A stretch of 24,538 bases of DNA, from NCBI GenBank assembly GCA_022360105.1, contig JAKSDL010000184.1:1-24538 (forward strand), read 5' to 3'. Numbering within the stretch: the stretch's first letter is position 1; every line of letters starts with the position of its first letter. Source of the stretch: Pseudomonadota bacterium (lineage in GTDB: Bacteria > SAR324 > XYD2-FULL-50-16 > JAHJRI01). The position numbers and the translations under genes are program-made. The notes beneath the pieces are model-generated. The model made no database searches and was not told the origin of the DNA. It was given only the letters and a program-made list of their open reading frames with translations. Positions 10,876-24,538 of this stretch are shown piece by piece.

Positions 10876-11169
10876 CTAAAATGTTAAATCTCTTCGCATT
10901 TCCTGTAATTGTGCTGAGAAAGCCGACAGTTGATCCGATGCTGCTTCGTTTTCCCCCTCTTCATGAATTTTTTTAATAGAATTTATTGCAATATCGATTT
11001 GACTTTTTGGATTGTTTTTTACATCTTCAAGAAGTTGTTTTCTGTAGTCTTCAATTCTTTCATCCCCCTCTGAAATAATTGCCGACACTGATATAACAGT
11101 TGAAATTACTACAGCTACGATTAATGGCATTAAGGCCGCACCAATAATTTTTGTTCTGATTGATACATT
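10876..11169 (-). pseudogene. Fragment of a membrane sensor/chemoreceptor N-terminus
   Basis: The intact frame from ATG 11130 to the stop at 10876 codes for 84 aa: a hydrophobic helix (IVAVVISTVISVSAII) and then a charged helix with RIEDYRKQLLEDVKNN, the pattern at the start of single-Cache or MCP-type periplasmic domains. Upstream of the ATG the same frame stays open to about 11175 and reads NVSIRTKIIGAAL, a typical receptor N-terminus, but without a start codon. A GGAG plus ATG at about 11170 is in the neighbouring frame. After the stop, a different frame reads 30 further residues. A 5' frameshift plus an early stop is the simplest reading, so I call it decayed. It could instead be a small membrane protein starting at 11130. 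No downstream signalling domain remains. Confidence 0.4.
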
Positions 11170-11175
11170 TATGTT

Positions 11176-11781
11176 TCTCCAGGACTATGAGTTTATTTCA
11201 CAATGTCAATTTATAGATACTTTTCCATATCAAAGGAAATTTAAAGTTATATTGCGGAACAAGGCTAGCATCATGATCCCCCCTTCAAAGCTTTAATATT
11301 GTTGAAACACGAACATGCTATTCTTGTCCAGGCCAACTAACTGATGGAACGAGCCATTCCATACTTTTTGATATTTACCAGATTTTAGAAAAACCAATAA
11401 AACTACATCAAATTTTATCGGTTTGAAGCGATGTTGAGTCAAAATACCGTTCAAAGGGTATCGCTTTCAAGCTCAGTTGCCACTATGTGAGGGGTCATTA
11501 ATAGGGACATTGACAACTAAGCAGTTTGGGTAAGGATATGGTTCGGAGTCTTCCGATAATTCCCATTTTTACTATCCAGCAATTTTACTAATCTAAGTCC
11601 AATATGACGTTACTAATTTAAATCCGGGAAACCAGGCTTGACGCTCAGCTGATGTTTGATGGAGTCTTGTTGAGTCGTAGTTTATTGGATTTGGATTATC
11701 GACTTACAATTTAGTGTCGCTGAACGAATTTTGTTTTCGGTAGATATATAGATTTCTTATAAATAATCGGATCATCCAGCT
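11176..11781. other. Intergenic region upstream of the hybrid kinase
   Basis: About 600 bp with no coding frame I would defend. It contains GAACGAATTT (11722-11731), the reverse complement of the AAATTCGTTC element found at the symporter and CoA-transferase promoters, and an AT-rich stretch at 11741-11770 that may include the promoter of the kinase. A small 6-bp inverted repeat (ATGGAA/TTCCAT) lies near 11344-11362. Confidence 0.45.
11722..11731 (-). repeat. Inverted copy of the AAATTCGTTC element before the kinase gene
   Basis: The minus strand reads AAATTCGTTC, 10 of the 11 nt of the distal arm of the shared promoter motif, 50 bp before the kinase start. No GGAACAT partner is present at the usual distance, so this is a half-site at most and could be chance. 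Confidence 0.35.
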
Positions 11782-14700
11782 ATGAAATCTTTAAAAAAAA
11801 TACTCTATAATCTTCCTGTCAGATCAAAGCTTTTTCTGAGCTATTCATTGACGATGTTGCTCACTATTTCCCTGGGGGGATTGATCATGTCGTCAATTAT
11901 CAGGAATTCAATAGAATCCAACATTGAGAGTGAGCTTTCCAATTCCACCAACACCATCCTCAACTTAGTGAAAAGTACAACAGACGCTTCCATAAAAAAC
12001 CTTTTGCGTGCGATTGCAGAAAAAAACAAGGATATCGTGCAACATTTTTATGAACGGCATATTGCCGGAGAGATGGATCTGGAAACAGCTAAATCAAGGG
12101 CTAAAGAGGTTTTATTAAGTCAATCTATCGGCAGCACAGGTTATATTTATTGCATCGATAGCACCGGTACAATAAAAGTTCACCCAAATTCGAAGCTAAT
12201 AAACGAAGATATATCCGAGTTTGAATTCGCCCGCAATCAAACGAAAAAAAAGGCCGGCTATCTGGAATATGATTGGGCAAACCCGGGAGAAGCCAAGCCC
12301 AGGGCAAAGGCTTTGTATATGACTCACTTCGCCCCCTGGGATTGGATCATCTCCGCATCAACTTACAGGGAAGAATTTATTGAATTGCTCAAACCTGAAG
12401 ATTTTGAACAGGGGGTTTCATCCCTTCGTTTTGGAACGACAGGTTATTCTTATGTCATTGATGGCCAGGGCGACTTTGTTATTCACCCAACTTACCAGGG
12501 TAACAACATCAGAGAGTCCAGAAATTCCGATGATCACACTTTCTTTTATGAAATGCTGGCAAAAAAAAACGGAAACATTATTTATTCCTGGAGAAACCCG
12601 GGTGAAGTTAATGCCAGGGAAAAACTGGTGATCTTTAATTATATTCCTGAACTGGATTGGATTGTTGCTTCTTCCAGCTATTTGAATGAATTTTATCAAC
12701 CATTGTGGACCATCAATTACACCATCCTGATTGTTTTTTTGGCGACATTGCTGCTGGCCTTTTTAACCACCTACTACCTGGGACGTTCCATCACCTATCC
12801 GCTTTATCAATTGATAGATAATTTTAAAATAAAAACAGATGGTGATTTTTCGAATCGCATGGAAGTCAATTCAGGTGGAGAAATTGGAGAATTGGCCTCT
12901 TATTATAATGACTTCATGGAACGATTGGAAAACTATCACAAAAAACTCCTTGTTTCAGAAGAGAATTTCAGAGGTATTTTTGAAGGAGCAGTCGAAGGAA
13001 TATTTAAATCAAAGGCTGACGGACAAATAGTCAGTATTAATTCTTCACTGTCTGTCATGCTGGGGTATAGTAATCCTGAAGAGTTGATCGAAGCGACAAA
13101 AAACAGAATTTATCATTTGTTCACAAAGAGAACCACGGGCGCTGAAATTCTTAACGTGCTTGAGGAAAAAGGCAGCGTCACCAATTATGAAACCCAATTA
13201 CGGAAAAAAGATAAAAGCATTATCTGGGTTTCGCTGTCCATCAGAGGCATTCAAAATGACGAAGAACTCGAATATGTCGAAGGATTTGTAAACGATATTT
13301 CCGAGCAAAAAAAATCTGAGTTGGAACTTATAAAAAGACAGAAGGAGATCGAAGATAAAAACAGGATTTTAGAAAATCAAACGGATGAATTAAAACGTCT
13401 CAGCGCCATCAAGGATGATTTCCTGGCCATGACAACGCACGAATTGCGGACTCCACTACACGGAATAATCGGTATTGCTGAATCGTTGATTGATGGAATT
13501 GCAGGCGACTTGCCCACCAAAGTTAACAAAGACCTGGATATTATCGTTTCAAGCGGCAGAAGGCTTTCCAACCTGGTAAACGATTTGCTGGTATCGTCCA
13601 AATTGAAGCAAAAAGACATCATCCTTTACCAACAGCCACTTCACTTAAAACAGAATATAGATGTCGTACTTAATATTCATGGGACATTGAAAAAAAATCC
13701 GGGACTGAAACTGGAAAACAAAGTTTCGGACAATCATTTTGTAATGGCAGATGAAGAGAGATTGCAGCAGGTTTTACATAATCTGATCGGCAATGCCATA
13801 AAGTTTACAGAATCCGGCACTATTACCGTCACTTCCGAAATTATCAATGGAAACGTCCAGATCAGTATCTCAGATACGGGCGTAGGCATTGAACAGGACA
13901 AGCTTGAAGATATTTTCCTTCCTTTTGAACAAGGTGATTATTCTTCCACAAGAAAATACTCGGGCACAGGCCTGGGTTTATCCATTACCAAACAGCTGGT
14001 TGAACTTCACGGTGGAACAATTTGGGCAAAAAGCGAACCGGGTAAAGGATCAAGTTTTTCATTTACCCTGGAGCATTCACGTATTCCGGCAGTATCAGGA
14101 TCCCTACCTGTTGCCAAAACTATTGAGATTATCCCGGTAAAGAGAGAGCAATCCATTTCCCAACCGGAAACAAATAACGATCAACAGCCGGAAATAGTAG
14201 TTGTAGATGATGATTTAGTGAACCTTCACGTGGTTACCGGCTACCTGAGTTCGTTAAATTATCGAACCATTGAATTTACTTCAGGCATCGAAGCCGTTGA
14301 ATATGTCCGGCAAAACAAACCCCGGCTTATTTTACTTGATGTGATGATGCCTGAGATGGACGGGTTTCAGGTGTGCAATGCCATCAGAGAAATATACCCG
14401 TTAAACGAACTTTCCATAATCTTCCTAACTGCCAGAAACCAGGTAACCGATTTAGTCCAAGGATTTAACGTAGGTGGAAATGATTACCTGACCAAGCCTT
14501 TTTCCAAAAATGAGCTGCTTGCAAGAGTTCAAACCCAATTTCGCTTGCTGGAAGCCAAAGACAGGCTCATTGACCTCAGAAATTTCGCAAACCAGATCGA
14601 TACATATAAAAACCTGGACCAATTGTTCGAGCATGCCTTTCAATACCTGGCAAAGGTCAGACATATTCAAAACGGTGCTTTGCTTTCCGAAGGCAGGGTC

Positions 14701-15291
14701 ATTTCTTCAAAAGTTGACGACAACGACTTCATCCAGAAAATCAAAGCCAATGAGCAATCGGAAGAGGAAATTGACGTATTACCGGATGCTGATTCGCAAT
14801 TGATTAGTATCCGGGTCAAAGGAATGGATAGTCACAGGATTGTGTTGCAAACTGCTGAATTTGTAACAGGATTAAGGCTCGAATACATCCGCAACATGGT
14901 GGAGCAAATAAAAATAATTCGTGAGATTATCAACAAATTCTCATTTGATCCTGATATTTCAAAAGAAACATTTACAATTGGCTCCATGTTAAACGATATC
15001 TTGTACATTCAAGCTGCTAAACAGTACTGCATTGCTCACACAAAAGACGAGTCTATCGAACTGAGGCTTTCATTAAAAGAGAGCACACTCCGCTTCAGGG
15101 AGTACCAACTCCTTCAGGTACATCGCTCATATCTTATCAATCCGGATCTGGTTACCTCCATTGAGGTTGCCAAAAACAAACGAATTGATATCAACCTTGG
15201 AAAAGACAAAATTCCGGTAGGTGTGAATTATACATCTACCGTTTTAAAAACCTTTCCCAACCTCATTCAAAACGGATTACCCCCTCAATAA
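11782..15291 (+). CDS. Double-Cache hybrid histidine kinase with receiver and LytTR DNA-binding domain
   Basis: 1169 aa. Order: TM1 (about 20-40); two Cache-type periplasmic domains (about 80-200 and 210-305, each with a GYIY/GYSY-IHP pattern and a WIIAS/WIVAS ending); TM2 (about 311-333); HAMP (about 334-388); PAS (about 390-508); HisKA with MTTHELRTPLHG (His553); HATPase with NLIGNAIKF, SDTGVGI and GTGLGL; receiver with VVDDD, LILLDVMMPEMDG (Asp853) and TKPF (Lys905); a GAF-like stretch (about 930-1045); and LytTR (about 1065-1160, with DILYIQAAKQYCIAHT, QVHRSYLIN and IPVGVNYTS). One membrane protein therefore holds sensor, kinase, phospho-acceptor and DNA-binding output. Cache domains commonly bind small carboxylates or amino acids. 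No clear ribosome binding site precedes the ATG. Its neighbours are a symporter and CoA-metabolism genes sharing a promoter motif, which makes it a candidate regulator. Confidence 0.9.
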   Translation: MKSLKKILYNLPVRSKLFLSYSLTMLLTISLGGLIMSSIIRNSIESNIESELSNSTNTILNLVKSTTDASIKNLLRAIAEKNKDIVQHFYERHIAGEMDLETAKSRAKEVLLSQSIGSTGYIYCIDSTGTIKVHPNSKLINEDISEFEFARNQTKKKAGYLEYDWANPGEAKPRAKALYMTHFAPWDWIISASTYREEFIELLKPEDFEQGVSSLRFGTTGYSYVIDGQGDFVIHPTYQGNNIRESRNSDDHTFFYEMLAKKNGNIIYSWRNPGEVNAREKLVIFNYIPELDWIVASSSYLNEFYQPLWTINYTILIVFLATLLLAFLTTYYLGRSITYPLYQLIDNFKIKTDGDFSNRMEVNSGGEIGELASYYNDFMERLENYHKKLLVSEENFRGIFEGAVEGIFKSKADGQIVSINSSLSVMLGYSNPEELIEATKNRIYHLFTKRTTGAEILNVLEEKGSVTNYETQLRKKDKSIIWVSLSIRGIQNDEELEYVEGFVNDISEQKKSELELIKRQKEIEDKNRILENQTDELKRLSAIKDDFLAMTTHELRTPLHGIIGIAESLIDGIAGDLPTKVNKDLDIIVSSGRRLSNLVNDLLVSSKLKQKDIILYQQPLHLKQNIDVVLNIHGTLKKNPGLKLENKVSDNHFVMADEERLQQVLHNLIGNAIKFTESGTITVTSEIINGNVQISISDTGVGIEQDKLEDIFLPFEQGDYSSTRKYSGTGLGLSITKQLVELHGGTIWAKSEPGKGSSFSFTLEHSRIPAVSGSLPVAKTIEIIPVKREQSISQPETNNDQQPEIVVVDDDLVNLHVVTGYLSSLNYRTIEFTSGIEAVEYVRQNKPRLILLDVMMPEMDGFQVCNAIREIYPLNELSIIFLTARNQVTDLVQGFNVGGNDYLTKPFSKNELLARVQTQFRLLEAKDRLIDLRNFANQIDTYKNLDQLFEHAFQYLAKVRHIQNGALLSEGRVISSKVDDNDFIQKIKANEQSEEEIDVLPDADSQLISIRVKGMDSHRIVLQTAEFVTGLRLEYIRNMVEQIKIIREIINKFSFDPDISKETFTIGSMLNDILYIQAAKQYCIAHTKDESIELRLSLKESTLRFREYQLLQVHRSYLINPDLVTSIEVAKNKRIDINLGKDKIPVGVNYTSTVLKTFPNLIQNGLPPQ

Positions 15292-15549: not shown

Positions 15550-15606
15550 TCTTAAACTCGCGATTCGAAATAGTATTTTCGTTTCTAATCGGCAGTCGTT
15601 AATCAC

Positions 15607-15617
15607 AAATTCGTTCC
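15607..15617 (+). repeat. Solo copy of AAATTCGTTCC upstream of the symporter promoter
   Basis: Exact 11-nt match to the distal arm of the shared promoter motif, 99 bp upstream of the copy in the promoter. It is followed by AAAATCAGCACTAC, which resembles AAAATCAACACTG just downstream of the CoA-transferase promoter. It may be an auxiliary binding site. Confidence 0.5.
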
Positions 15618-15705
15618 AAAATCAGCACTACTTTATTTTTATGAATTTAATTTAATTATCTGTATTTTTTAGCTAATTATCGATCGATGCTGGCTAGTTT
15701 TTGGC

Positions 15706-15773
15706 AAATTCGTTCCAATGTTCACTAAACCGGGAACATTAATCTTGTCTCCTCCGCGAAATTATTCTAGCAA
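15706..15773 (+). promoter_or_regulatory. Symporter operon promoter with shared regulatory motif, copy 1
   Basis: AAATTCGTTCC (15706-15716), 16 nt, GGAACAT (15733-15739), 5 nt, TTGTCT (15745-15750), 17 nt, TAGCAA (15768-15773). The same blocks with the same spacings occur at 20497-20564. TTGTCT/TAGCAA with a 17-nt spacer is a weak sigma70 pair, as expected for an activator-dependent promoter. GTTCC/GGAAC form an inverted repeat with centres 21 bp apart (two helical turns), ending 7 nt before the -35 hexamer. Predicted start is near 15780, giving a leader of about 210 nt. Confidence 0.6.
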
Positions 15774-15848
15774 GAGCCACGCTTAAAAAGGCCGAACAAA
15801 ATCCCGGAATGTTCGAAATATTCGATTATTCGGAAACTTACCTAAATG

Positions 15849-15876
15849 CCATAAGAATTGTTTATGGTCTTTTTTT
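15849..15876 (+). terminator. Terminator-like hairpin in the symporter mRNA leader
   Basis: CCATAA (15849-15854), 7-nt loop, TTATGG (15862-15867), then TC and seven Ts (15870-15876). It lies about 70 nt after the predicted start and 115 nt before the first gene. The stem is weak (6 bp, AT-rich), so it may act as a pause or conditional terminator rather than a full stop. Confidence 0.4.
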
Positions 15877-15990
15877 GCGAGCCAAAACTCTAATGACTCC
15901 CCCTCTGGAGAATCGGTAAAACTGAAGACAAAACGAGAATGTGCCTGACGGTCCGTGGCTATAATTGATTTTTTAAAAAGGAGAACATAC

Positions 15991-16704
15991 ATGGAAAATA
16001 GCTCGAGGTACGATATTAATTTTTTTAAACCGCATACTCCGTTTTTGAAGGAGACTGTCCGGTTGGTAACAACTGGGCTGATTGTGTGGTTTGTAGCGGT
16101 TTATGGTTTTCATGTTCTTTTACGAATTATTGAAACTCCGACTCCGGAAAAGAACTTCATCACTTATCAGGCCTTGTATCCAAAATTGCAACAAGGTACA
16201 GCATCTTTTGAAGAACGTAAGGAAATGGCAAACATTTACCTGGGCTTATTAGGTAAATCCGCAGCTCTTTTAAATCAGAAAAACCAGGAATTGAAGATGG
16301 CTTTCACCTCCGTTGTAATCTCCCTGTTTGAAACGGATGAGAAAGAACTACTGCTGGAAACGATCGCAAAATTAAAAGCTGATAAATCAGCAGACATACA
16401 ATTTGTAGTCAATACACTTGGCATTGAAAATGATTTATCCCGAGTAGCCGTTTTGCCGTACGCCCTGGTTATACCAACGTCTTTGCCTGGTCAGATGACC
16501 TCTCCCGGAATTCCGGCAACCATGGAAAAATACCTGGTTCACAATCAGTCAGTGCTGACCGATACAAAATTTCTTGGCTTTCCGTTTCACTATTTTTATT
16601 CCGCGGTATTTCTCCTGGCATTATTCGTCACAATCTGCCTGGTTTATTGCAAAGCAATCGATCGAGTCATGAAGAAACATGATATGGAATCTGAATTTAA
16701 CTAG
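15991..16704 (+). CDS. Sodium:solute symporter small subunit-like (DUF4212-type) protein with a large loop insert
   Basis: 237 aa from the ATG at 15991, chosen because AAGGAG stands 8 nt upstream; an in-frame ATG at 15955 lacks a site. TM1 is about 22-47 (LVTTGLIVWFVAVYGFHVLL) and TM2 about 202-224, preceded by FLGFPFHYFY and followed by a short basic, then acidic tail. Both ends resemble DUF4212 symporter small subunits, which are normally around 80-110 aa and lie directly before an SSS-family permease, as here (13 nt gap). Between the helices is an extra domain of roughly 120-145 residues, helix-rich and charged, probably on the periplasmic side if the N-terminus is inside. The family assignment rests on TM motifs and gene order. 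The insert I do not recognise. Confidence 0.65.
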   Translation: MENSSRYDINFFKPHTPFLKETVRLVTTGLIVWFVAVYGFHVLLRIIETPTPEKNFITYQALYPKLQQGTASFEERKEMANIYLGLLGKSAALLNQKNQELKMAFTSVVISLFETDEKELLLETIAKLKADKSADIQFVVNTLGIENDLSRVAVLPYALVIPTSLPGQMTSPGIPATMEKYLVHNQSVLTDTKFLGFPFHYFYSAVFLLALFVTICLVYCKAIDRVMKKHDMESEFN

Positions 16705-16717
16705 GAGATAATAAATC

Positions 16718-18427
16718 ATGAAAAAAACAAAAAACTTGTCGGTTGTGCTCATTTCGATGTTAATTAGTCAGTTTTTTATGACTTTCCCGGTTTTTGGTGC
16801 CAGCGCTTCCAGTCTTGAAGGAAGTTTTAAAACTGCTCCAGCCATAATTCTGGTTGCTTGTATATTGGTGTTCATTGTGGTCGGTTTGAGAAACACCGCC
16901 AGAAACGTTGAAGGTTATTATGCAGCCGGTCGTTCAATCTCACGAGTTGGATCAGGGATGGCGATTGCATCCAACTGGATGTCCGCGGCATCATTTCTTG
17001 GCCTGGCAGCTGTAACATATGCCAATGGCTATCACGGAATTGCCTATGTTGTGGGTTGGACCGGCGGGTACGTGTTAATATTGGTATTAATCGCCTCTCA
17101 AATCAGACGCTTTGGGAAATACACAGCAACAGATTTTATTGGCGACAGATATTACTCGTCTGGATTGAGGATTGCCACAGCGTTTATCGCATTTTTTATT
17201 AGCTTCTGTTATGCCGTGGGGCAGTTTGGCGGAATCGGGCTGATGTTTAAATGGATTTTTGGCATCGACTATAGCTCTGCAGTAATTGTAGGATCTGTCG
17301 TAGTACTTGCTTATACCCTGATATCAGGGATGTTGGGAGTAACCAAAAATCAGCAGATTCAGTATATCATTTTGATCACAGCGTTTTTGATCCCGACTTT
17401 TATTTTAACCTTCAAATTTGACTATTTCTGGTTGATTCCACCCATTGGTTACGGTCAGGTTGTTTCCGATATTGTGCAGGGAACACAGACAGGTCACGTA
17501 TCTTCACTGGGTCATGCAATGAGCACTATTCCCAGCCCGGAATATGCAATGCCGTGGGACCCGGCGGTTGGTCAGAACTTTTTTCAATGGATGGCCACCT
17601 GCTTTGCCCTGATGATAGGTACTGCAGGGTTACCTCACGTAATACAGAAGTTTTATGTGGTGCCACGTCCAAGCGATGCCCGCTGGTCAGTAACCTGGGG
17701 TCTTTTCTTTATTTGCGTGCTTTACTGGGGGTCTCCGCTATATTCGGCCTTTGGAAAAATCCTTTCTTCAAGCCCGGAAGTGGGGAATCTGGCCAAAGAC
17801 GCCATTGTGGTCTACACAGCCCAGCTTGGGTCGGTTAATCCCTTAATCGTTGGATTTCTCGCTGCCGGTGCCATTTCCGCTGCTTTTTCTACGATATCCG
17901 GACTCTATGTTTCCGGTTCATCAGCCTTATCCAACGATATTTACTTCAAAGTTTTGAAACCTCATGCAACTGATGCCCAGCAGGTTAACATGGCTAAAAT
18001 TGCCACCATAGGGATGGCAGCCGCAGTCACCCTGGTAGCACTTTTAAAACTGGGTTTAATCGCTCAATTGGTGGCATTGGCTTTTTCCATAGCCGGATCT
18101 ACTTTTTTCCCCCTGTTCCTTACAGGAATCTGGTGGAGTAGGTCCAATCGGGCAGGTGGTATAGCAAGCATTACAGTTGGTGGAGGTATCTCCTTAATAG
18201 TGGTTTTCTATTTTGTCGCAGGAAAATTTGGCGTACCACTTCCTGCCAAGGCATTCATGAACTACTGGCTCAATCCATGGTATTTTGCCTGGATCGCAGG
18301 TCCCCTGGCTGTCCTGGCTAATGTTATCTTCTCATACCTGGGTGAGGACACGCCTCTGGAAATCAAAAAACATCTTGCAGTTGCCGTACACGGAATAGAA
18401 GAAGAAACCACCCGGGTTAATCAATAA
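16718..18427 (+). CDS. SSS-family Na+/solute symporter, ActP-like
   Basis: 569 aa, multi-spanning (about 13-14 hydrophobic segments), with a cleavable-looking first segment (MKKTKNLSVVLISML... ending near VFGASA). Family-typical segments include NVEGYYAAGRSIS, AIASNWMSAASFLG, TATDFIGDRYYS and AAGAISAAFSTISGLY. This is the large subunit partner of the preceding small protein. Symporters of this ActP-like group import acetate, propionate, pyruvate or related monocarboxylates with Na+; the exact substrate cannot be read from sequence. Ribosome binding site AGGAGA, 9 nt before the ATG. The operon ends with a strong terminator immediately after the stop codon. Nearby CoA-transferase and methylmalonyl-CoA mutase genes share its promoter motif, which favours a short-chain carboxylate. 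Confidence 0.87.
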   Translation: MKKTKNLSVVLISMLISQFFMTFPVFGASASSLEGSFKTAPAIILVACILVFIVVGLRNTARNVEGYYAAGRSISRVGSGMAIASNWMSAASFLGLAAVTYANGYHGIAYVVGWTGGYVLILVLIASQIRRFGKYTATDFIGDRYYSSGLRIATAFIAFFISFCYAVGQFGGIGLMFKWIFGIDYSSAVIVGSVVVLAYTLISGMLGVTKNQQIQYIILITAFLIPTFILTFKFDYFWLIPPIGYGQVVSDIVQGTQTGHVSSLGHAMSTIPSPEYAMPWDPAVGQNFFQWMATCFALMIGTAGLPHVIQKFYVVPRPSDARWSVTWGLFFICVLYWGSPLYSAFGKILSSSPEVGNLAKDAIVVYTAQLGSVNPLIVGFLAAGAISAAFSTISGLYVSGSSALSNDIYFKVLKPHATDAQQVNMAKIATIGMAAAVTLVALLKLGLIAQLVALAFSIAGSTFFPLFLTGIWWSRSNRAGGIASITVGGGISLIVVFYFVAGKFGVPLPAKAFMNYWLNPWYFAWIAGPLAVLANVIFSYLGEDTPLEIKKHLAVAVHGIEEETTRVNQ

Positions 18428-18434
18428 TCCTTTT

Positions 18435-18479
18435 CCGATCTTTATTGCTTGTTGTTAAAAGCGGTAAAGATCGGTTTTT
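18435..18479 (+). terminator. Strong intrinsic terminator after the symporter
   Basis: A 16-bp stem (18435-18450 with 18459-18474, two G-T pairs) with an 8-nt loop, followed by TTTTT (18475-18479). It begins 8 nt after the symporter stop codon. It also covers a possible TTG start (18449) of the next frame, which makes that start unlikely. Confidence 0.88.
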
Positions 18480-18493
18480 ATAAAAAATCACAC

Positions 18494-19321
18494 ATGTTTG
18501 TAGATTTTAAGTCAGGCACCATTAAGGTTTTAATAGGAACATTGACAGCTGTGGGTATTATGCTGATTGGATCTTACTACTATTATGATAAAATCAACAG
18601 CACTGAAGATCCACGAGTACTGAAAGCAAAGCAGTTATTGTTGCAGTATGAAAAAGGCCTGAAAAGCGATCAATATGTTCAGGCCTTCAGTCTCCTGGAG
18701 ACGATTCTGTCGATCTACAAAAACACTCCCGGATATGCGGATTCTTATGAAGTAGGTGTGGTGCTGAATAACCAGGCAAGTGTACATCTGGTGAAGCTGG
18801 AAACAGATTTACTTGTTCAAAACCAAGAAACGATCAACAAAGAGGACATGATCAAAACCTTGAAGGCAGCTATGGTCCTCACTAAAGACTCCATTGAGGT
18901 GTATAGAAACTGGATGGATTCAATGGGGAAACTTACCGAAAAAGAGATAAGGATACACCTCGGTAAATCTTTCGATCCGGAAGACATGGCTTTCGAAAAT
19001 GTAGACTTTGAGGCAGTATTCGAAAAAAGAGTAGAAGATATAAAATTGGCGCAAATAGAAACCGAACGTCGCTTGTCAGTCTCTCTCACTAACCTGGGTG
19101 TTATCAATCGCTACTTGGGGAATCTGGAAGAAGCAAAAGGCAACTATGAACAAGCATTGCTGCTCTGGGACAGAAATTATACGGCAAAAAACAATCTTAA
19201 CATCCTAATGAACAGACCGTTGGAAAAAAGATCCCTGATTGATCGCCTCTTTCCTCCTGAAAGGCTTCAAGAACTCAGGGACGAGCTAAAAATCAAAAAA
19301 CCTGAAGGGAATTTTAATTAA
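18494..19321 (+). CDS. Membrane-anchored TPR-repeat protein of unknown role
   Basis: 275 aa from the ATG at 18494; the frame extends to a TTG at 18449, but that lies in the preceding terminator hairpin. One N-terminal membrane helix (about 8-30, KVLIGTLTAVGIMLIGSYYYY), then a mostly helical soluble part. A TPR-like pair is seen late in the protein (SLTNLGVINRYLGNLEEAKG with NYEQALLLWD), and earlier helices (QYVQAFSLLETILSIYKNTP) look like another. The likely location is the periplasmic face, with the membrane anchor acting as an uncleaved signal. No Shine-Dalgarno is visible, so expression may be low or start elsewhere. It is followed 70 nt later by a receiver gene. I do not recognise a specific family. 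Confidence 0.6.
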   Translation: MFVDFKSGTIKVLIGTLTAVGIMLIGSYYYYDKINSTEDPRVLKAKQLLLQYEKGLKSDQYVQAFSLLETILSIYKNTPGYADSYEVGVVLNNQASVHLVKLETDLLVQNQETINKEDMIKTLKAAMVLTKDSIEVYRNWMDSMGKLTEKEIRIHLGKSFDPEDMAFENVDFEAVFEKRVEDIKLAQIETERRLSVSLTNLGVINRYLGNLEEAKGNYEQALLLWDRNYTAKNNLNILMNRPLEKRSLIDRLFPPERLQELRDELKIKKPEGNFN

Positions 19322-19391
19322 ACAAAATTATGATGTAACCTGACCGAATCCTTTGATAGAAATTCCCAATCCAGACCCACTGAGCTGTTCT

Positions 19392-19754
19392 ATGCCAAAA
19401 AAGATACTAATAGTCGACGACGAACCCAATATTGTTATTCCCCTGGAGTTTCTGATGAAACAAAGCGGTTATGAGGTATCTACGGCATGCAACGGAGACC
19501 AGCTCTTTGCTGCGATTGATTCTGAACAGCCAGACTTGATCCTGCTGGATGTCATGCTTCCGGGGATGGATGGTTTTGAGATTTGCCACACCATTCGGGC
19601 CAATCACAATAAGAACATGAAAATCATTTTACTGACAGCCCGAAGCAGAGAAGTTGATATTAAAAAAGGTTTGGGAATGGGTGCCAATGCCTATATTAAA
19701 AAACCATTTTCCACAAAAGATTTAATGCACACCATACAGCAGATGATTAATTAA
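19392..19754 (+). CDS. Stand-alone receiver-domain (CheY-like) response regulator
   Basis: 120 aa from the ATG at 19392; the frame extends upstream to a TTG at 19353, but those 13 residues are not receiver-like. It is a complete receiver: acidic pocket D9-D10-E11, phospho-acceptor D53 in LILLDVMLPGMDG, T82 in LLTAR and K104 in KKPFS. There is no output domain, so it either relays phosphate or acts by protein contact. It contains only the receiver, so the CheA-like kinase at 3536-6238, which has an Hpt but no receiver, or the hybrid kinase at 11782 are possible partners. That pairing is speculative. The ribosome binding site is weak. Confidence 0.85.
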   Translation: MPKKILIVDDEPNIVIPLEFLMKQSGYEVSTACNGDQLFAAIDSEQPDLILLDVMLPGMDGFEICHTIRANHNKNMKIILLTARSREVDIKKGLGMGANAYIKKPFSTKDLMHTIQQMIN

Positions 19755-19975
19755 GCCCCCTGGTTAACCTGCAATATCCCCTGGTATTTTCCACCAATCC
19801 TGACAGATCCTTGCTCGTGAACGTGCTATCGCTCTCCCTCTTTGGCTTCAATAAATAATCATGTTTCTCATTCTGGTTGACGGGTAACGAGGTATCCATC
19901 CTACACAACCTATTTTTTTTGGTCGTATAATAGGAAGTTTTTTGAATCCGTGCACGAGTTTGCCAGGAATGTAGC

Positions 19976-19995
19976 ATGGGCAACTTGTTGCCCAT
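19976..19995. repeat. 20-bp palindrome
   Basis: ATGGGCAAC, TT, GTTGCCCAT: 9-bp perfect arms with a 2-nt centre. It is too tight for a stable RNA loop, so a DNA-binding site is more likely than a terminator. No T-run follows. Confidence 0.5.
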
Positions 19996-20184
19996 CAGAA
20001 GCATCGTTATGAGATCGAAGGACTAATTTGCCTGGCACAATCTGCAGCAAAGCCATGCCTGGAAACTGTAGAGGAAGGTAGTGCGACCCTAAGTCAATGT
20101 CATTTAGTCAAGAGAATCGGAACCGGTTGTCATCCTGGTCATGAGAAGCGAAAGTTTACTGCAGTGATTTTTCAATGAACCGCG

Positions 20185-20202
20185 GCGGAGTCGTAGCTCC
20201 GC
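20185..20202. repeat. GC-rich hairpin GCGGAG/CTCCGC
   Basis: A 6-bp perfect stem with loop TCGTAG, followed by TTTACCG on the plus strand. It may be a weak terminator or a remnant of a repeat; function unknown. Confidence 0.35.
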
Positions 20203-20496
20203 TTTACCGTTTGAAATACCTATCGAAATAAGCTCATTTAAGCTTTGGTAGCTTGCAGCCTCTAAATCTACTTTTATTCCTGTTGATAACTAACAGGTTA
20301 CCCATCTTACACCTCAAATCCCGGACAGAATGCATCTTGAATCTTCTTTGCAATATTCAATCTGACACCAGCTTCACAATTTGCTTCCAAAATACCAAAA
20401 ATTCATACCAAAAACCTTATCAAGCACCTCCGCAAGCACAACTTCATCTCTCTGTATTTTTTAACTTTTTACCAAAAACATTCATTGGTTTTACAA

Positions 20497-20564
20497 AAAT
20501 TCGTTCCTTCCTCCTTTTAGTTCGGAACATCAGGGTTGTCTGCTGTCCAATTATATTTTAGCTA
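20497..20564 (+). promoter_or_regulatory. CoA-transferase operon promoter with shared regulatory motif, copy 2
   Basis: AAATTCGTTCC (20497-20507), 16 nt, GGAACAT (20524-20530), 5 nt, TTGTCT (20536-20541), 17 nt, TAGCTA (20559-20564). It aligns without gaps to 15706-15773; by hand count 42 of 68 positions match, concentrated in the four blocks. The predicted start near 20571 gives a leader of about 155 nt. A separate TATAAT at 20665-20670 lacks a good -35 and could be a second promoter. Confidence 0.6.
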
Positions 20565-20725: not shown

Positions 20726-21742
20726 ATGTTGTGGACCGGATTATCACCAGATGAAGCAAGAGAATATCTGGAACAAAAAGATAAATCTAAAAGAGACAAA
20801 CGAATGACTTTAACGGAGGCCGTCCGGAAATACGTCGGGGATGAGGATGTCATTGGCGTCGGTGGATTTGTAAACAGCAGACAGCCCGTTGCTATTGCTC
20901 ATGAGATCATCAGACAAGGCAGAAAGAACCTAACCCTTGCTTTCCAGTCAGCCGGCTTGGTTCCCGACTATCTCTTGGGAGCCATGGCACTGAGGCCTGG
21001 GCATGTTTCCGTAAAAAGAATGGAATTCGCCTATGCAGGCCATGAATACGCAGGAACGTCTTCTTTATTAAGATACATGACAGAAAATGAGAAGATTTTT
21101 ATTGAAGACTGGACCAATTTTAATATGTCAGCCCGTTTCAAGGCAGGTTCCATGGGAATTCCCTTCATGCCGATCAGAAGCGGAATGGGAGGTGACATAG
21201 AAAAATGCAACAGATCACAGGTCATCCAATGCCCTTTTTCAGAAAGAAATATCTTGCTGATACCGGCCTGTCATCCTGACGTTGGAATCTTGCACGTCCA
21301 AGAAGCCGATATCTACGGCAATTGCCGGATCAAAGGCCAGACTTTTACCTGCCCTGAAATTGCCATGGCATCTAAAAATGTGATTGTAACTTGTGAAAAG
21401 ATAGTGGATCACGACCTGGTGGCCATGAACCCGACACAAACATCCATACCTTTCTTTGCCGTCGACGCCATCGTTGAACTTCCCTATGGAGCCTACCCAA
21501 CGGTATGTCACGACATTCACTATTATGACAAAATTCACCTGGAACACTTCAAGGCACTGACTAACGCTTTCCGTAAAGGTGATGGGGATGGACTTGAGGC
21601 ATACTATGATCAATATATATTCGGTGTAAAGGATATCGACGAATTTATCGATCAAATTCCTTACAAACAATTGCGATATGCTCATCAAACAGAATCAAGA
21701 ACCCTTGAGCTACAAACCCATTTAGACGTACCGCAGGTATAA
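20726..21742 (+). CDS. Class I CoA-transferase, alpha subunit (glutaconate CoA-transferase type)
   Basis: 338 aa from the ATG at 20726, supported by AGGGG 8 nt upstream; the TTG at 20708 is less likely. It has the layout of GctA-like alpha subunits: MTLTEAVRKYV, VIGVGGFVNSRQP, GSMGIPFMP, a PVPQVDV-like segment (PACHPDVGILHVQEADIYGN), VTCEEI-like VTCEKIVDHD, then AVVELPYGAYPTVCH-like sequence. The alpha subunit binds CoA/acyl parts at the interface, while the catalytic Glu is in the beta subunit. The reaction moves CoA from a donor acyl-CoA to a carboxylate; the true substrates are unknown, and a nearby mutA favours propionyl-, acetyl- or succinyl-CoA partners over glutaconate. First gene of an operon with the beta subunit and mutA. 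Confidence 0.85.
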   Translation: MLWTGLSPDEAREYLEQKDKSKRDKRMTLTEAVRKYVGDEDVIGVGGFVNSRQPVAIAHEIIRQGRKNLTLAFQSAGLVPDYLLGAMALRPGHVSVKRMEFAYAGHEYAGTSSLLRYMTENEKIFIEDWTNFNMSARFKAGSMGIPFMPIRSGMGGDIEKCNRSQVIQCPFSERNILLIPACHPDVGILHVQEADIYGNCRIKGQTFTCPEIAMASKNVIVTCEKIVDHDLVAMNPTQTSIPFFAVDAIVELPYGAYPTVCHDIHYYDKIHLEHFKALTNAFRKGDGDGLEAYYDQYIFGVKDIDEFIDQIPYKQLRYAHQTESRTLELQTHLDVPQV

Positions 21743-21822: not shown

Positions 21823-22617
21823 ATGACAGAATACGCAACAGATTACTCGCCCAGCGAAATGATTGTAACTGCTGGGGCAAGGCAGCTTGAAGACAATAAA
21901 GTGATATTTGCAGGAACCGGATTGCCGATGGTTGGAATTACTTTGGCCCAGTTAACAGCCGGCCCTGGAATCATACCTGTTTTCGAGGCCGGTGCGGTTG
22001 GTCCCACGTTGAATAGAAGTTTACCTCTGTCAGTAGGCGATTCCAGAACCACCAGCCAGGCCAATTTTATCCAGGGATTGAATTCGGCTTTTGAGTTAAC
22101 CCAGAGGGGATTTATTGACATCGGATTCATCGGTGGTGCTGAAATTGACCCTTTTGGAAATCTCAACTCAACAATGATCGGCGAGTTTCCTGCAAATTAT
22201 ATGAAACCGACTGTCAGGCTGCCGGGTAGCGGAGGAGCCGGAGACATGTCTTGTTCATGCACACACACCATTTTAATTGTCCAGCATGAATCCAGGAGGT
22301 TTGTGGAAAAACTACAGTACACAACCAGTATCGGTCATCTCGATGGTTCCAAAGATGCCAGAAAAAAGGCAGGCCTGCAAGGTAAAGGACCAAAGATCGT
22401 TATCACCACAAAAGCCCTTATGGGTTTTGATGACGAAACAAAACGAATGAAAATTCTGGCAACAATGCCCGGTGAAACGGTTGCCAGCGTTCAGGATGCT
22501 ACTGGGTTTGAATTGCTTGTTGATGCAAATCTTTACGAATACGAACCACCCACCAAAGAAGAAATCAGATTGATTAGAGAAGTGATCGATCCAACCCAGA
22601 TATTTTGTAAACGATAG
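21823..22617 (+). CDS. Class I CoA-transferase, beta subunit (catalytic Glu)
   Basis: 264 aa, length as in GctB-type beta subunits. The catalytic Glu that forms the glutamyl-CoA thioester is probably E55 in IPVFEAGAVG, followed by SLPLSVGDSRT and GFIGGAEIDPFGNLNST, all typical of this family. Ribosome binding site AAGGAAGG, about 5 nt before the ATG. It pairs with the upstream alpha subunit to give an active heteromer. It is followed after only 7 nt by the mutA start, so these genes are co-transcribed and probably translationally coupled. Confidence 0.87.
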   Translation: MTEYATDYSPSEMIVTAGARQLEDNKVIFAGTGLPMVGITLAQLTAGPGIIPVFEAGAVGPTLNRSLPLSVGDSRTTSQANFIQGLNSAFELTQRGFIDIGFIGGAEIDPFGNLNSTMIGEFPANYMKPTVRLPGSGGAGDMSCSCTHTILIVQHESRRFVEKLQYTTSIGHLDGSKDARKKAGLQGKGPKIVITTKALMGFDDETKRMKILATMPGETVASVQDATGFELLVDANLYEYEPPTKEEIRLIREVIDPTQIFCKR

Positions 22618-22624
22618 TTGAAAC

Positions 22625-24538
22625 ATGGAAAATAAACAAAACAAATTGCTGTCCGAGTTTCCTGTGCCAAGCTACGACCAATGGTTGCAACTGGTCGAGA
22701 AACAATTAAAGGGAGCTCCGTTTGAGAAAAAACTCATCACTAAAACAGCTGAAGAAATTGAGATCAAACCGATCTATTTGAAATCCGATCTTCCAAAAGA
22801 ATCATCAAATGATCAGTTGCCGGGATTCTTCCCGTTCACTAGAAGTACAAGCGCTACAGGTTCGGTAAGAGAAGGTTGGAAGGTGTCTCAGCAATACTTT
22901 TATCCGGATTCTGCCTTGTTAAATGATGCTATCCAACAGGATCAGGAAAAAGGACTAGATGCCGTGATGCTGGTGATTGATAAGGCCGGCAAGAAGGGAC
23001 TAGATCCTGATGCTGCGGTTGCTGATGAGATCGGATTGGAAGGATTGTCGCTATGCAGTCGGCAAGATCTTGAGCAGGCATTTCAAGGATTCGATTTTAC
23101 TACCAAATCAATTTTATTGGATAGCGGCCCCTCCGCATTTTCTACATTTGGGCTGTTGGTAGGATATCTCGAATCGCTTGGATTTGATGTAAAACAGCTG
23201 AAAGGTGCTTCCGTATTCGACCCCTTGGCTTATGTTTGCACGAATGGAAGTCTATCCCGATCAACCTCTCACTTCTTTGATGAAATGGTGGGCTTGGTTG
23301 GCTGGACCGATCAATTCACTCCCAATTTCAAAGCTATCGGTATCGATGCTCGCCCTTATGCAGAAGCAGGAGGCAATGCAGTTCAGGAATTAGCCTATGC
23401 CCTGGCAACAGCGGTTGAGTATATTCGGGAATTGAGACAAAGGGGGCTGAATATTGATCAAGCTGCCAGCAGCATGTCGCTGTTTTTGGGAATAGGAGCC
23501 GATTTCTTCACCGAAATTGCCAAACTAAGAGCTGCACGAAGCTTGTGGGCAAGAATGATTTCCGTATTTGGAGGCAATGAAGAGTCTCAAAAATTGACCA
23601 TTCATAGCGCCTCCATTAACTGGAATAAAACGGTGCACGATCCTCATGTGAACATTCTGAGAGCAACCACCGAGGCTTATTCAGGAATACTAGGGGGATG
23701 TGACACGCTTAGCGTGGCTCCGTTTGATCAAGTGTTGGGTCTTCCTGAAGAGGCTTCACGGCGTATCTCACGTAATATTCAGATCATATTGAAAGAAGAA
23801 TGTCATGGCCACAAAGTAATAGATCCCGCGGGAGGAGCATGGTTTGTGGAAGAGCAGACCAAGGAACTGGCTGAAAAAGCCTGGATCCTTTTTCAAGAAA
23901 TGGAAAGAGCAGGAGGATTTCAATCAGCACTTGAAAAAGGGGTGCCACAAAAAGCTATTGAAGACACGGCCGGACAGCGAAAATCGCTGATTGGAAAACG
24001 AAAGAAAGTGATTGTAGGTACGAACATGTTTCCTGACCTTAAGGAACAATCGCCACCTACCAAGAACTTTGTTCAAAATGCTTTTGCAAAAAGACGTGTC
24101 GATCAGGCAAGAATGTGGAAATTCTCGCGGGATCAGGGATCGGGCTGGGCGAGCCTCAAAGATATGAATTTCCAGAGTCCTGAGTTTTTTAATCAGATCA
24201 TAGAGTCCGTGAAAAAAGGACTCACCTTGGGAGAAATTAACTCGATCCTTTCAAAAGACAACAACGAACTGACACTCAACTCCCCTTTAGCAGCGGGAAG
24301 ATTGAGCGACGATTACGAAGAATTAAGAAAAAAAGCAGAAAACCATAAAGCGAAAAACGGATGTTACCCAAAAGTGTTCCTCGTAAACATGGGGCCGTTA
24401 AGACAGCACAAAGCTCGTGCCGACTTTTCAACAGGCTTCTTGCAACCGGGCGGTTTCGAGGTTTTGACCAGCGATGGATTCAATGCTATCGAGGACGCCG
24501 CTGCTGCCGCAGTTGTTTCAAAAGCCAATATCGTGGTA
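22625..24538 (+). CDS. mutA: Methylmalonyl-CoA mutase small (beta) subunit, 3' end cut by the window
   Basis: 638 codons are open from the ATG at 22625 to the last base, so the stop lies beyond. A mutase TIM-barrel region is seen with PFTRSTSATGSVREGWKVSQQY, GIDARPYAEAGGNAVQELAYALA, HPHVNILRATTEAYSGILGGCDT-like sequence and EECHGHKVIDPAGGAWFVE. Near the end it has VNMGPLRQHKARADFSTGFLQ in place of the DxHxxG cobalamin-binding motif, which identifies the non-catalytic small subunit rather than the B12-binding large one. The complex interconverts methylmalonyl-CoA and succinyl-CoA in propionate metabolism. The large subunit (mutB) is expected just past the window. It starts 7 nt after the CoA-transferase beta stop, with only a weak ribosome binding site (TTGAAAC). 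Confidence 0.9.
   Translation, partial: MENKQNKLLSEFPVPSYDQWLQLVEKQLKGAPFEKKLITKTAEEIEIKPIYLKSDLPKESSNDQLPGFFPFTRSTSATGSVREGWKVSQQYFYPDSALLNDAIQQDQEKGLDAVMLVIDKAGKKGLDPDAAVADEIGLEGLSLCSRQDLEQAFQGFDFTTKSILLDSGPSAFSTFGLLVGYLESLGFDVKQLKGASVFDPLAYVCTNGSLSRSTSHFFDEMVGLVGWTDQFTPNFKAIGIDARPYAEAGGNAVQELAYALATAVEYIRELRQRGLNIDQAASSMSLFLGIGADFFTEIAKLRAARSLWARMISVFGGNEESQKLTIHSASINWNKTVHDPHVNILRATTEAYSGILGGCDTLSVAPFDQVLGLPEEASRRISRNIQIILKEECHGHKVIDPAGGAWFVEEQTKELAEKAWILFQEMERAGGFQSALEKGVPQKAIEDTAGQRKSLIGKRKKVIVGTNMFPDLKEQSPPTKNFVQNAFAKRRVDQARMWKFSRDQGSGWASLKDMNFQSPEFFNQIIESVKKGLTLGEINSILSKDNNELTLNSPLAAGRLSDDYEELRKKAENHKAKNGCYPKVFLVNMGPLRQHKARADFSTGFLQPGGFEVLTSDGFNAIEDAAAAAVVSKANIVV

Follow-up and report, generated by a model that had tools for sequence, protein, structure and literature searches.

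Two 68-nt regions on the forward strand of the analysed window (24,538 nt of SAR324 DNA), site 1 at 15706-15773 and site 2 at 20497-20564, carry the same promoter-like architecture upstream of a symporter operon and a CoA-transferase/methylmalonyl-CoA mutase operon, respectively. With a probability of about two in three, we read sites 1 and 2 as operator-promoter copies of one unit that would be bound by a LytTR hybrid histidine kinase and would activate both operons. The architecture, the domain content and the gene order are plain from the DNA, and the gene order is partly conserved in relatives.

Two operons share a promoter architecture

The earlier note on this DNA described four blocks at sites 1 and 2, separated identically by 16, 5 and 17 nt; all coordinates and spacings were as given there. 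GTTCC and GGAAC are indeed inverted, with centres 21 bp apart (15714/15735 in site 1, 20505/20526 in site 2). Around these pentamers we predict operators made of inverted half-sites with an inferred length of 9 nt and a 12-nt gap, at 15710-15739 for site 1 and 20501-20530 for site 2, both on the forward strand. A -35-like TTGTCT (15745-15750 and 20536-20541) follows and, 17 nt further, a -10-like hexamer, TAGCAA at 15768-15773 in site 1 and TAGCTA at 20559-20564 in site 2. A gap of 5 nt separates the half-sites from the downstream -35-like hexamer, which agrees with the activator-like layout proposed earlier. As sigma-70 elements, TTGTCT is acceptable and TAGC(A/T)A is poor; a sigma-70 consensus promoter scan picked up neither promoter. 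Such a weak -10 would be compatible with activator dependence. A sigma-54 promoter was rejected at the site, where no GG-N10-GC was found by eye.

When sites 1 and 2 are compared, all 28 block bases are identical and 14 of the 40 spacer positions match. That the blocks were kept while the spacers drifted argues for constraint. Recent duplication would have left the spacers alike, so their low similarity argues against it. The claim that chance is an unlikely source of this arrangement also held: a fixed-register run statistic reached 17 for the site pair, the top value in the whole window, whereas 1000 dinucleotide-shuffled versions of the two intergenic regions gave 15 at most. The margin is modest at the level of the whole window, where 0 of 12 shuffles reached 17 and the maximum was 16. 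Plain 68-mer identity of the pair (42/68) is unremarkable by itself, the best direct 68-mer pair in the window scoring 43 and two other pairs also 42.

Further half-site elements, overlooked in the earlier note, lie upstream of both sites on the forward strand. A third perfect AAATTCGTTCC begins 99 nt before the core copy of site 1, at 15607; the corresponding extra half-site, CAAATTCGTTCCAA at 15606-15619, is an exact 14-nt direct repeat and is suggestive only. Upstream of site 2, a half-site-like element that is 86% alike (20396-20409) stands 98 nt before the core copy, where AAATTCATACC represents a weaker AAATTCGTTCC copy with 2 mismatches. Because two-mismatch matches to AAATTCGTTCC are common, the element of site 2 is weak evidence.

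The operons probably encode carboxylate uptake and activation

One regulator for uptake and activation of a carboxylate had been proposed, without naming it. Genes for both functions are present, all on the forward strand, and the candidate regulator is described below. Operon 1 starts with the symporter small subunit (DUF4212/TIGR03647 profile matches; 15991-16704), which has a long N-terminal extension. Its ORF opens at GTG 15955; the RBS-like AAAGGAG precedes ATG 15991, and the 237-aa record P0241 agrees with this second start. The next gene encodes a VC_2705-type sodium/solute symporter (TIGR03648; 16718-18427; 447.5 bits against a cut-off of 320.75). Directly 3' of it, an intrinsic-terminator-like hairpin of 16 pairs, 6 of them G-C (18435-18474), likely marks the end of operon 1. 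Terminator-like sites number 7 in the region against a shuffle average of 4.9, and the stem at 18435-18474 is by far the longest.

Domain and profile matches assign operon 2 to CoA-transferase subunit A (20726-21742), CoA-transferase subunit B (21823-22617) and the methylmalonyl-CoA mutase small subunit (22625-24538, cut by the window end). The ORF of subunit A opens at TTG 20708; we place the start at ATG 20726, as in the related SAR324 bacterium G001, where the large mutase subunit comes after the small one. An Rfam search for a riboswitch, such as a cobalamin riboswitch given the mutase, returned no match at gathering score, and the only match below that score was chance-like, to a human lncRNA. 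Folding of the leaders relative to shuffles gave z scores of -2.4 for operon 1, 0.6 for operon 2 and -1.4 for the G001 counterpart of operon 2. The operon-1 leader folds better than its shuffles and the operon-2 leader no better, and we claim no common element.

A LytTR hybrid kinase is the candidate regulator

A hybrid histidine kinase of 1169 aa is encoded at 11782-15291 on the forward strand and, by Pfam and inspection by eye for the TM segments, has the domain order TM-dCache-TM-HAMP-PAS-HisKA-HATPase-REC-LytTR. This single protein thus holds HisKA, HATPase, receiver and DNA-binding domain together with the acceptor His and Asp. The LytTR domain (PF04397, residues 1070-1154) scores 58.7 bits against a cut-off of 22.6, and the phospho-acceptors H553 and D853 are invariant in all 13 full-length orthologues, the kinase itself included. 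Pfam scans of 10 window proteins found no DNA-binding domain other than LytTR, and a receiver-only protein at 19353-19754 carries none. From its domains and position, this adjacent kinase is most likely the regulator of both operons. Its AlphaFold2 model has a mean pLDDT of 60, falling below 50 over residues 1052-1169 (the LytTR part), and the isolated LytTR domain had no PDB sequence match at E up to 0.1. Viral contigs contained no relatives of the kinase or of a 21-base core pattern of the sites; among plasmids, the 5000 best-scoring kinase matches were distant and none covers 80% of the query.

The sensor half matches the carboxylate-binding Cache domains 4k08 and 5g4y/5g4z (E 7e-11 and 6e-9). 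In PscD, according to the excerpt of PMC5062169 used here, Y90, H103, Y143 and K156 hydrogen-bond propionate. Y121, H134, Y163 and K176 of the kinase align with these four residues and are invariant in 13/13 orthologues, so that the first Cache module has the full propionate-bonding set of the PscD/McpP type (5g4z, 4k08). Of the stacking tryptophans of PscD, W145 is kept as W165 and W92 corresponds to Tyr123, Phe126 being left ambiguous by the alignment. PscD and McpP are chemotaxis receptors, whereas in the window protein it is a kinase that bears the double Cache, and Tyr replaces Trp92. The ligand is probably a C2/C3 carboxylate, and propionate is our best guess.

From these features we infer ligand, phosphorelay, binding and activation as follows. 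An extracytoplasmic C2/C3 carboxylate would bind the dCache sensor, upon which the kinase would phosphorylate H553 and pass the phosphate to its own receiver at D853. Dimerization of the kinase would pair its C-terminal LytTR domains, which would then bind the inverted GTTCC/GGAAC half-sites; from there, just upstream of the -35, they would bring RNA polymerase to promoters whose -10 is weak. Operon 1, once on, would supply a two-subunit Na+/carboxylate symporter for acid uptake; operon 2 would supply CoA-transferase and methylmalonyl-CoA mutase, which would activate the acid and feed it into succinyl-CoA.

The site and the kinase are conserved in a relative

The 21-base core pattern had one match in genome_contigs (84,980 species genomes), in G001, and this site (L038:9446-9513) precedes the orthologous CoA-transferase/methylmalonyl-CoA mutase operon, in keeping with the promoter role assigned to it earlier. 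All 28 of its block bases are identical to site 2, a match that is partly circular because 21 of the 28 formed the search pattern. Scatter of the motif away from promoters, which the earlier note named as evidence against its proposal, was not seen in this relative: the 6.7-Mb MAG holds a single site with fewer than 3 mismatches. The other 7 matches to an 18-base pattern in G001 all have 3 mismatches, and the reversed control gave 6 matches. Across 52 phylum genomes, the core pattern with at most 1 mismatch was found at 17 places in 14 genomes (G001's included) against 11 for the reversed control, and no genome has more than 2 such places. CGTTCC-N16-GGAAC alone gave 4 matches in G001 versus 6 in the control; one is the orthologous site and two are a single palindromic place. 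One match was rejected, lying inside a gene that by eye resembles a sigma-54 activator.

An 87%-identical kinase lies directly upstream of the CoA-transferase operon in G001, where neither the symporter operon nor its promoter copy is present. Kinase and CoA-transferase are apparently on one contig in two further species, P0003/P0122 (10,383 bp, ncbi) and P0004/P0137 (33,525 bp, ena), paired by identical longest-contig size and source tag and not by direct reading of the sequences. Three of the 12 non-window kinase orthologues are therefore tied to CoA-transferase, G001's by direct reading and two via contig match. The other 9 had no contig match among the CoA-transferases listed (120 of 533), and none of the 12 was matched among the DUF4212 proteins listed (120 of 871), by a test blunt enough to miss G001's own CoA-transferase as well. 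GTTCC-N16-GGAAC was absent upstream of 21 other CoA-transferase loci of the phylum, 5 of which had fewer than 500 nt available on that side.

Relation to known LytTR systems

The hybrid two-component systems of Bacteroides thetaiotaomicron have a DNA-binding domain of the AraC type, where the window kinase has LytTR. The 32 such systems of this species, as here, unite the kinase with its DNA-binding domain in a single membrane protein (PMC10269533); their ligands and phylum differ. The comparisons below draw on excerpts of the cited papers. A pair of 9-11-nt repeats, direct or inverse, with 11-13 nt between them makes up almost all LytTR sites, which have no common consensus (PMC4847170). The predicted operator fits that geometry with its 9-nt half-sites, 12-nt gap and inverse orientation, an orientation mentioned in the same source; the direct repeats typical of the best-described LytTR sites are not found here. 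In the LytTR operons of Streptococcus mutans, the prevailing arrangement is an interval of 12 bp between the repeats and a distance of 4-11 bp to the downstream -35 (PMC6193735), and most LytTR regulators bind upstream of the -35 and activate (PMC11347149).

Several characterized systems resemble ours in part. YpdB and BtsR of Escherichia coli (with the LytS-type kinases YpdA and BtsS) likewise have a LytTR output and control transport of a carboxylate, pyruvate (PMC4847170, PMC10653868). YpdB also binds paired half-sites, but in direct orientation and with a sequence, GGCATTTCAT, that bears no relation to the window's; both systems comprise two separate proteins, and the sensor of BtsS is 5TMR-LYT versus Cache here. 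HdrRM and BrsRM, LytTR Regulatory Systems of S. mutans, resemble the predicted window system in activating and in their 9-nt repeats, the 12 bp between these and the distance of 4-11 bp to the -35 (PMC6193735); their repeats are direct, however, and in place of a kinase they have a separate inhibitor in the membrane. CoxC and RcoM1 of CO oxidation have LytTR fused to a sensor as here, CoxC being membrane-bound, and their repeats are also spaced by about two helical turns (PMC11347149); unlike the window kinase, they are described as single-component gas sensors with three direct repeats and without kinase or receiver, and CoxC represses. HigX of Caulobacter crescentus is a membrane LytTR factor with an inverted-repeat motif of 8 bp, ATGTTASC/GSTACCAT (PMC13384398). 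Its halves have no spacer, its four-helix membrane part comes, as described there, without kinase, receiver or periplasmic sensor, and its functions, envelope and SOS, are unlike those of the window system.

We found no operator for LytTR-tailed hybrid kinases described in the open-licence PMC literature. If our reading is true, it would supply one, and it would tie the sensing of a short carboxylate to the acid's uptake and CoA activation in SAR324, most members of which are uncultured. It is also a clean case for asking whether LytTR domains, when carried by a symmetric membrane dimer, recognize inverted and not direct repeats, toward which the HigX repeat is a first hint (PMC13384398). A bolder version we put forward tentatively, as doubtful: the operator would have changed from the direct repeat normal for LytTR sites to an inverted one with wide spacing, matching the two-fold axis of the kinase dimer, in a private one-protein propionate-type phosphorelay that has just one target promoter in one SAR324 lineage and two in another, where a symporter operon has a promoter copy. 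Beyond the operator question, an ordinary nutrient-responsive circuit is plausible.

Alternative explanations

The operator-promoter could be genuine and yet be bound by a transcription factor encoded elsewhere, the kinase being merely a neighbour or controlling other targets. Helix-turn-helix dimers also bind short dyads of this type, a window of just 24.5 kb leaves further regulators out of view, and 9 of the 12 non-window orthologues are untied to CoA-transferase among the matches listed. We regard this as unlikely, if worth weighing, given that the kinase adjoins CoA-transferase in G001 and apparently shares its contig in two more species, that the half-site geometry fits LytTR (PMC4847170, PMC6193735, in the excerpts used), and that neither the scanned window proteins nor the receiver at 19353-19754 offer a second DNA-binding domain.

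Control by the kinase might also be repression or dual control instead of activation. Sequence alone cannot give the direction, and the membrane-bound LytTR protein CoxC is a repressor whose binding overlaps the -35 (PMC11347149, in excerpt). Half-sites that end 5 nt short of the -35, next to a weak -10, are the usual activation layout and make repression or dual control improbable. Sites 1 and 2 might, lastly, be remnants of a duplicated promoter that no longer function, or blocks that coincide by chance, which would suit the small whole-window shuffle margin and an AT-rich tract, CTGTATTTTTTA, also common to both sites at nearly equal distance. The contrast between conserved blocks and drifted spacers, and the fall of the single genome_contigs match on an orthologous promoter, render such an origin very improbable.

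Operator spacing was also surveyed at 24 of 27 LytTR-kinase loci (the window and G001 included, with 22 other SAR324 loci). They had no common inverted-repeat spacing, in a search by exact 7-mers that is unable to detect the window's own imperfect dyad and so says little. A direct-repeat peak at spacing 21 comprised 85 pairs from just 6 LytTR-kinase loci, perhaps tandem repeats.

Four blocks with fixed spacing precede both operons

On re-reading of the sequence, four short blocks (a half-site with GTTCC, then GGAACAT, TTGTCT and TAGC(A/T)A, separated by spacers of 16, 5 and 17 nt) were present exactly as the earlier note had claimed at 15706–15773 (site 1), before the symporter operon (operon 1), and at 20497–20564 (site 2), before the operon for CoA-transferase subunits A and B and methylmalonyl-CoA mutase (operon 2). 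The two sites agree at 28/28 block bases and 14/40 spacer bases, and their plain identity of 42/68 is by itself nothing unusual. A score that sums, across 68 nt, the excess length of identical runs (4 or more) was computed for all registers; the two sites gave 17, the top value in the window. No shuffle reached this value: the maximum was 15 when the two intergenic regions were dinucleotide-shuffled 1000 times, and 16 in 12 shuffles of the whole window. The claim that such conservation is improbable by chance thus holds against every shuffle, with a modest margin at the whole-window level (17 vs 16). Judged from the sequence, sites 1 and 2 are a real, constrained and duplicated unit of putative operator and promoter.

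The perfect half-site TTCGTTCC has three copies in the window, both strands counted (15610, 15709 and 20500), every one of them inside one of the two promoter regions. Separately, an AT-rich tract, CTGTATTTTTTA, is identical at 15660–15671 and 20452–20463, 46 and 45 nt upstream of sites 1 and 2.

The site is found once in a SAR324 relative

Scanning of TTCGTTCC-N16-GGAACAT-N5-TTGTCT against genome_contigs (84,980 species genomes) gave a sole match, JANQLH010000242.1, from a SAR324-cluster MAG (G001). Downstream of the site there is a CoA-transferase operon; its transferase subunits are 93% and 96% identical to those of the window and are followed by both methylmalonyl-CoA mutase subunits. It shares 28/28 block bases and 30/40 spacer bases with the window; since 21 of the 28 block bases constitute the search pattern, the independent evidence is the other 7 (AAA, TAGC) and the location. 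Scattering of the motif, which the earlier note would take as an argument against a promoter role, was not seen in G001: in this 6.7-Mb MAG, possibly incomplete, the search with the 18-base pattern gave no second site below 3 mismatches, and the remaining 7 matches have 3, as against 6 matches for a reversed control pattern. The window stretch from ~15225 to ~20452, with site 1 and the DUF4212, symporter, TPR and receiver genes, is missing from G001, which argues for a promoter unit common to both lineages with a second copy on the symporter operon. Among relatives, the support comes from G001, read directly, and from two others in which co-location of kinase and CoA-transferase was deduced.

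The geometry fits a LytTR-type operator

Excerpts of the YpdB paper (PMC4847170) describe almost all LytTR sites as two 9–11-nt repeats, direct or inverse, with 11–13 nt between them and no common consensus. At sites 1 and 2, GTTCC and GGAAC are indeed inverse with centres 21 bp apart, which corresponds to two half-sites of 9 nt and a gap of 12 nt, and the half-sites end 5 nt before the −35-like hexamer. In S. mutans LytTR operons most repeats lie 12 bp from each other, with 4–11 bp between them and the −35 (PMC6193735, in extract), and most LytTR regulators bind upstream of the −35 and activate, according to part of the CoxC paper (PMC11347149). The motif of HigX, a transmembrane LytTR factor, is given in an excerpt of PMC13384398 as an inverted repeat without spacer; the inverted arrangement recurs at sites 1 and 2, where a spacer separates the halves. 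By analogy, the geometry of the putative operator fits LytTR. The −10-like TAGC(A/T)A is poor and a sigma-70 scan passes neither promoter, as expected of an activator-dependent promoter, and equally so if the hexamers are wrongly assigned.

A hybrid kinase is the likely regulator

Immediately upstream of site 1 lies a gene (11782–15291, +) for a membrane hybrid histidine kinase with dCache, HAMP, PAS, HisKA, HATPase, receiver and C-terminal LytTR domains; its G001 orthologue, 87% identical, stands directly before the CoA-transferase operon. In its LytTR region the predicted structure of the kinase had too low a confidence to be used. Around other SAR324 LytTR kinases, a weak search saw no common repeat spacing. 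A search that scored only the candidates sharing most words returned a tight set of 13 orthologues including the kinase itself (59–100% identity, 1473–2588 bits; next match 757), one of them named as Desulfocicer vacuolatum DSM 3385. Two besides that of G001 were read as co-located with CoA-transferase orthologues from matching longest-contig size and source tag (10,383, ncbi; 33,525, ena). No such match was found for the other 9 among the 120 CoA-transferases listed, nor for any of the 12 non-window kinases among the 120 DUF4212 proteins listed, by a method that is blunt, as clusters hide members and G001's known case was also missed. In more distant species the kinase may have other partners. 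We consider this putatively carboxylate-sensing LytTR hybrid kinase the likely regulator of the adjoining candidate operator–promoter unit. In its mode of action the pair would resemble known LytTR and hybrid systems for nutrient sensing; the use, by a hybrid kinase in the membrane, of a LytTR-type operator with spaced inverted repeats would be a variant, of which we found no description in the portions of the literature searched.

A near-perfect half-site, AAATTCGTTCA, at 11721–11731 (−), ~50 bp before the kinase start, is possibly autoregulatory; in the matching stretch of G001 no copy was seen at up to 2 mismatches. Of 52 SAR324 genomes, 21 have LytTR domains (maximum 30 matches in one genome), and 23 of the 111 matches fall within open frames of 853–2223 aa, the size of hybrid kinases.

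Propionate is the best guess for the signal

The first module of the kinase sensor half matches in sequence the chemoreceptor Cache domains 4k08 and 5g4y/5g4z, and the second matches 2qhk and 4exo. Excerpts of PMC5062169 give glycolate, acetate, propionate and pyruvate as ligands of PscD (5g4y/5g4z), and acetate in 4k08 and pyruvate in 4exo as crystal ligands. The four propionate hydrogen-bonding residues of PscD, as named in the excerpted account, correspond to Y121, H134, Y163 and K176 of the kinase, invariant in 13/13 orthologues; Trp145 of PscD is retained as W165 and Trp92 is replaced by Tyr123. Propionate would be our best guess for the signal, because operon 2 encodes the mutase of the route from propionyl-CoA through methylmalonyl-CoA to succinyl-CoA. 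Acetate or pyruvate may also act as signal, and a dicarboxylate seems less likely from the predicted pocket.

The symporter operon and neighbouring genes

A terminator-like hairpin of 16 pairs lies directly 3' of the symporter gene (16718–18427) and suggests that operon 1 consists of the two symporter subunits only. Two proteins are encoded beyond it, at 18449–19754: a TPR-like one and a response regulator with only a receiver domain; the latter could take part in the phosphorelay. The small subunit (15991–16704) has a long N-terminal extension, DUF4212 covering only residues 201–244 in an ORF of 249 aa. Relatives with a length of ~235 aa are common; the names of some point to Desulfobacterota and that of one to SAR324. 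A search of the 52 phylum genomes with the DUF4212 protein, run without positive control, gave no match, and a separate protein listing gave a relative (P0341), 41% identical, named from a SAR324 bacterium. TIGR03648 symporters exceed the cut-off in 7 of the 52 genomes, G001 not among them.

In the operon 1 leader (15780–15900), a short hairpin with a T run behind it can be made out by eye, and of 200 shuffles 197 fold less well than this leader; an attenuator is possible. In G001, the kinase is immediately preceded by a 609-aa Cache-HAMP-MCP chemoreceptor in opposite orientation (L038:3287–5116, −; L038 being the locus with the kinase and the site). The window retains about the first 78 codons only (10939–11172, −), 86% identical, and its chemoreceptor looks truncated.
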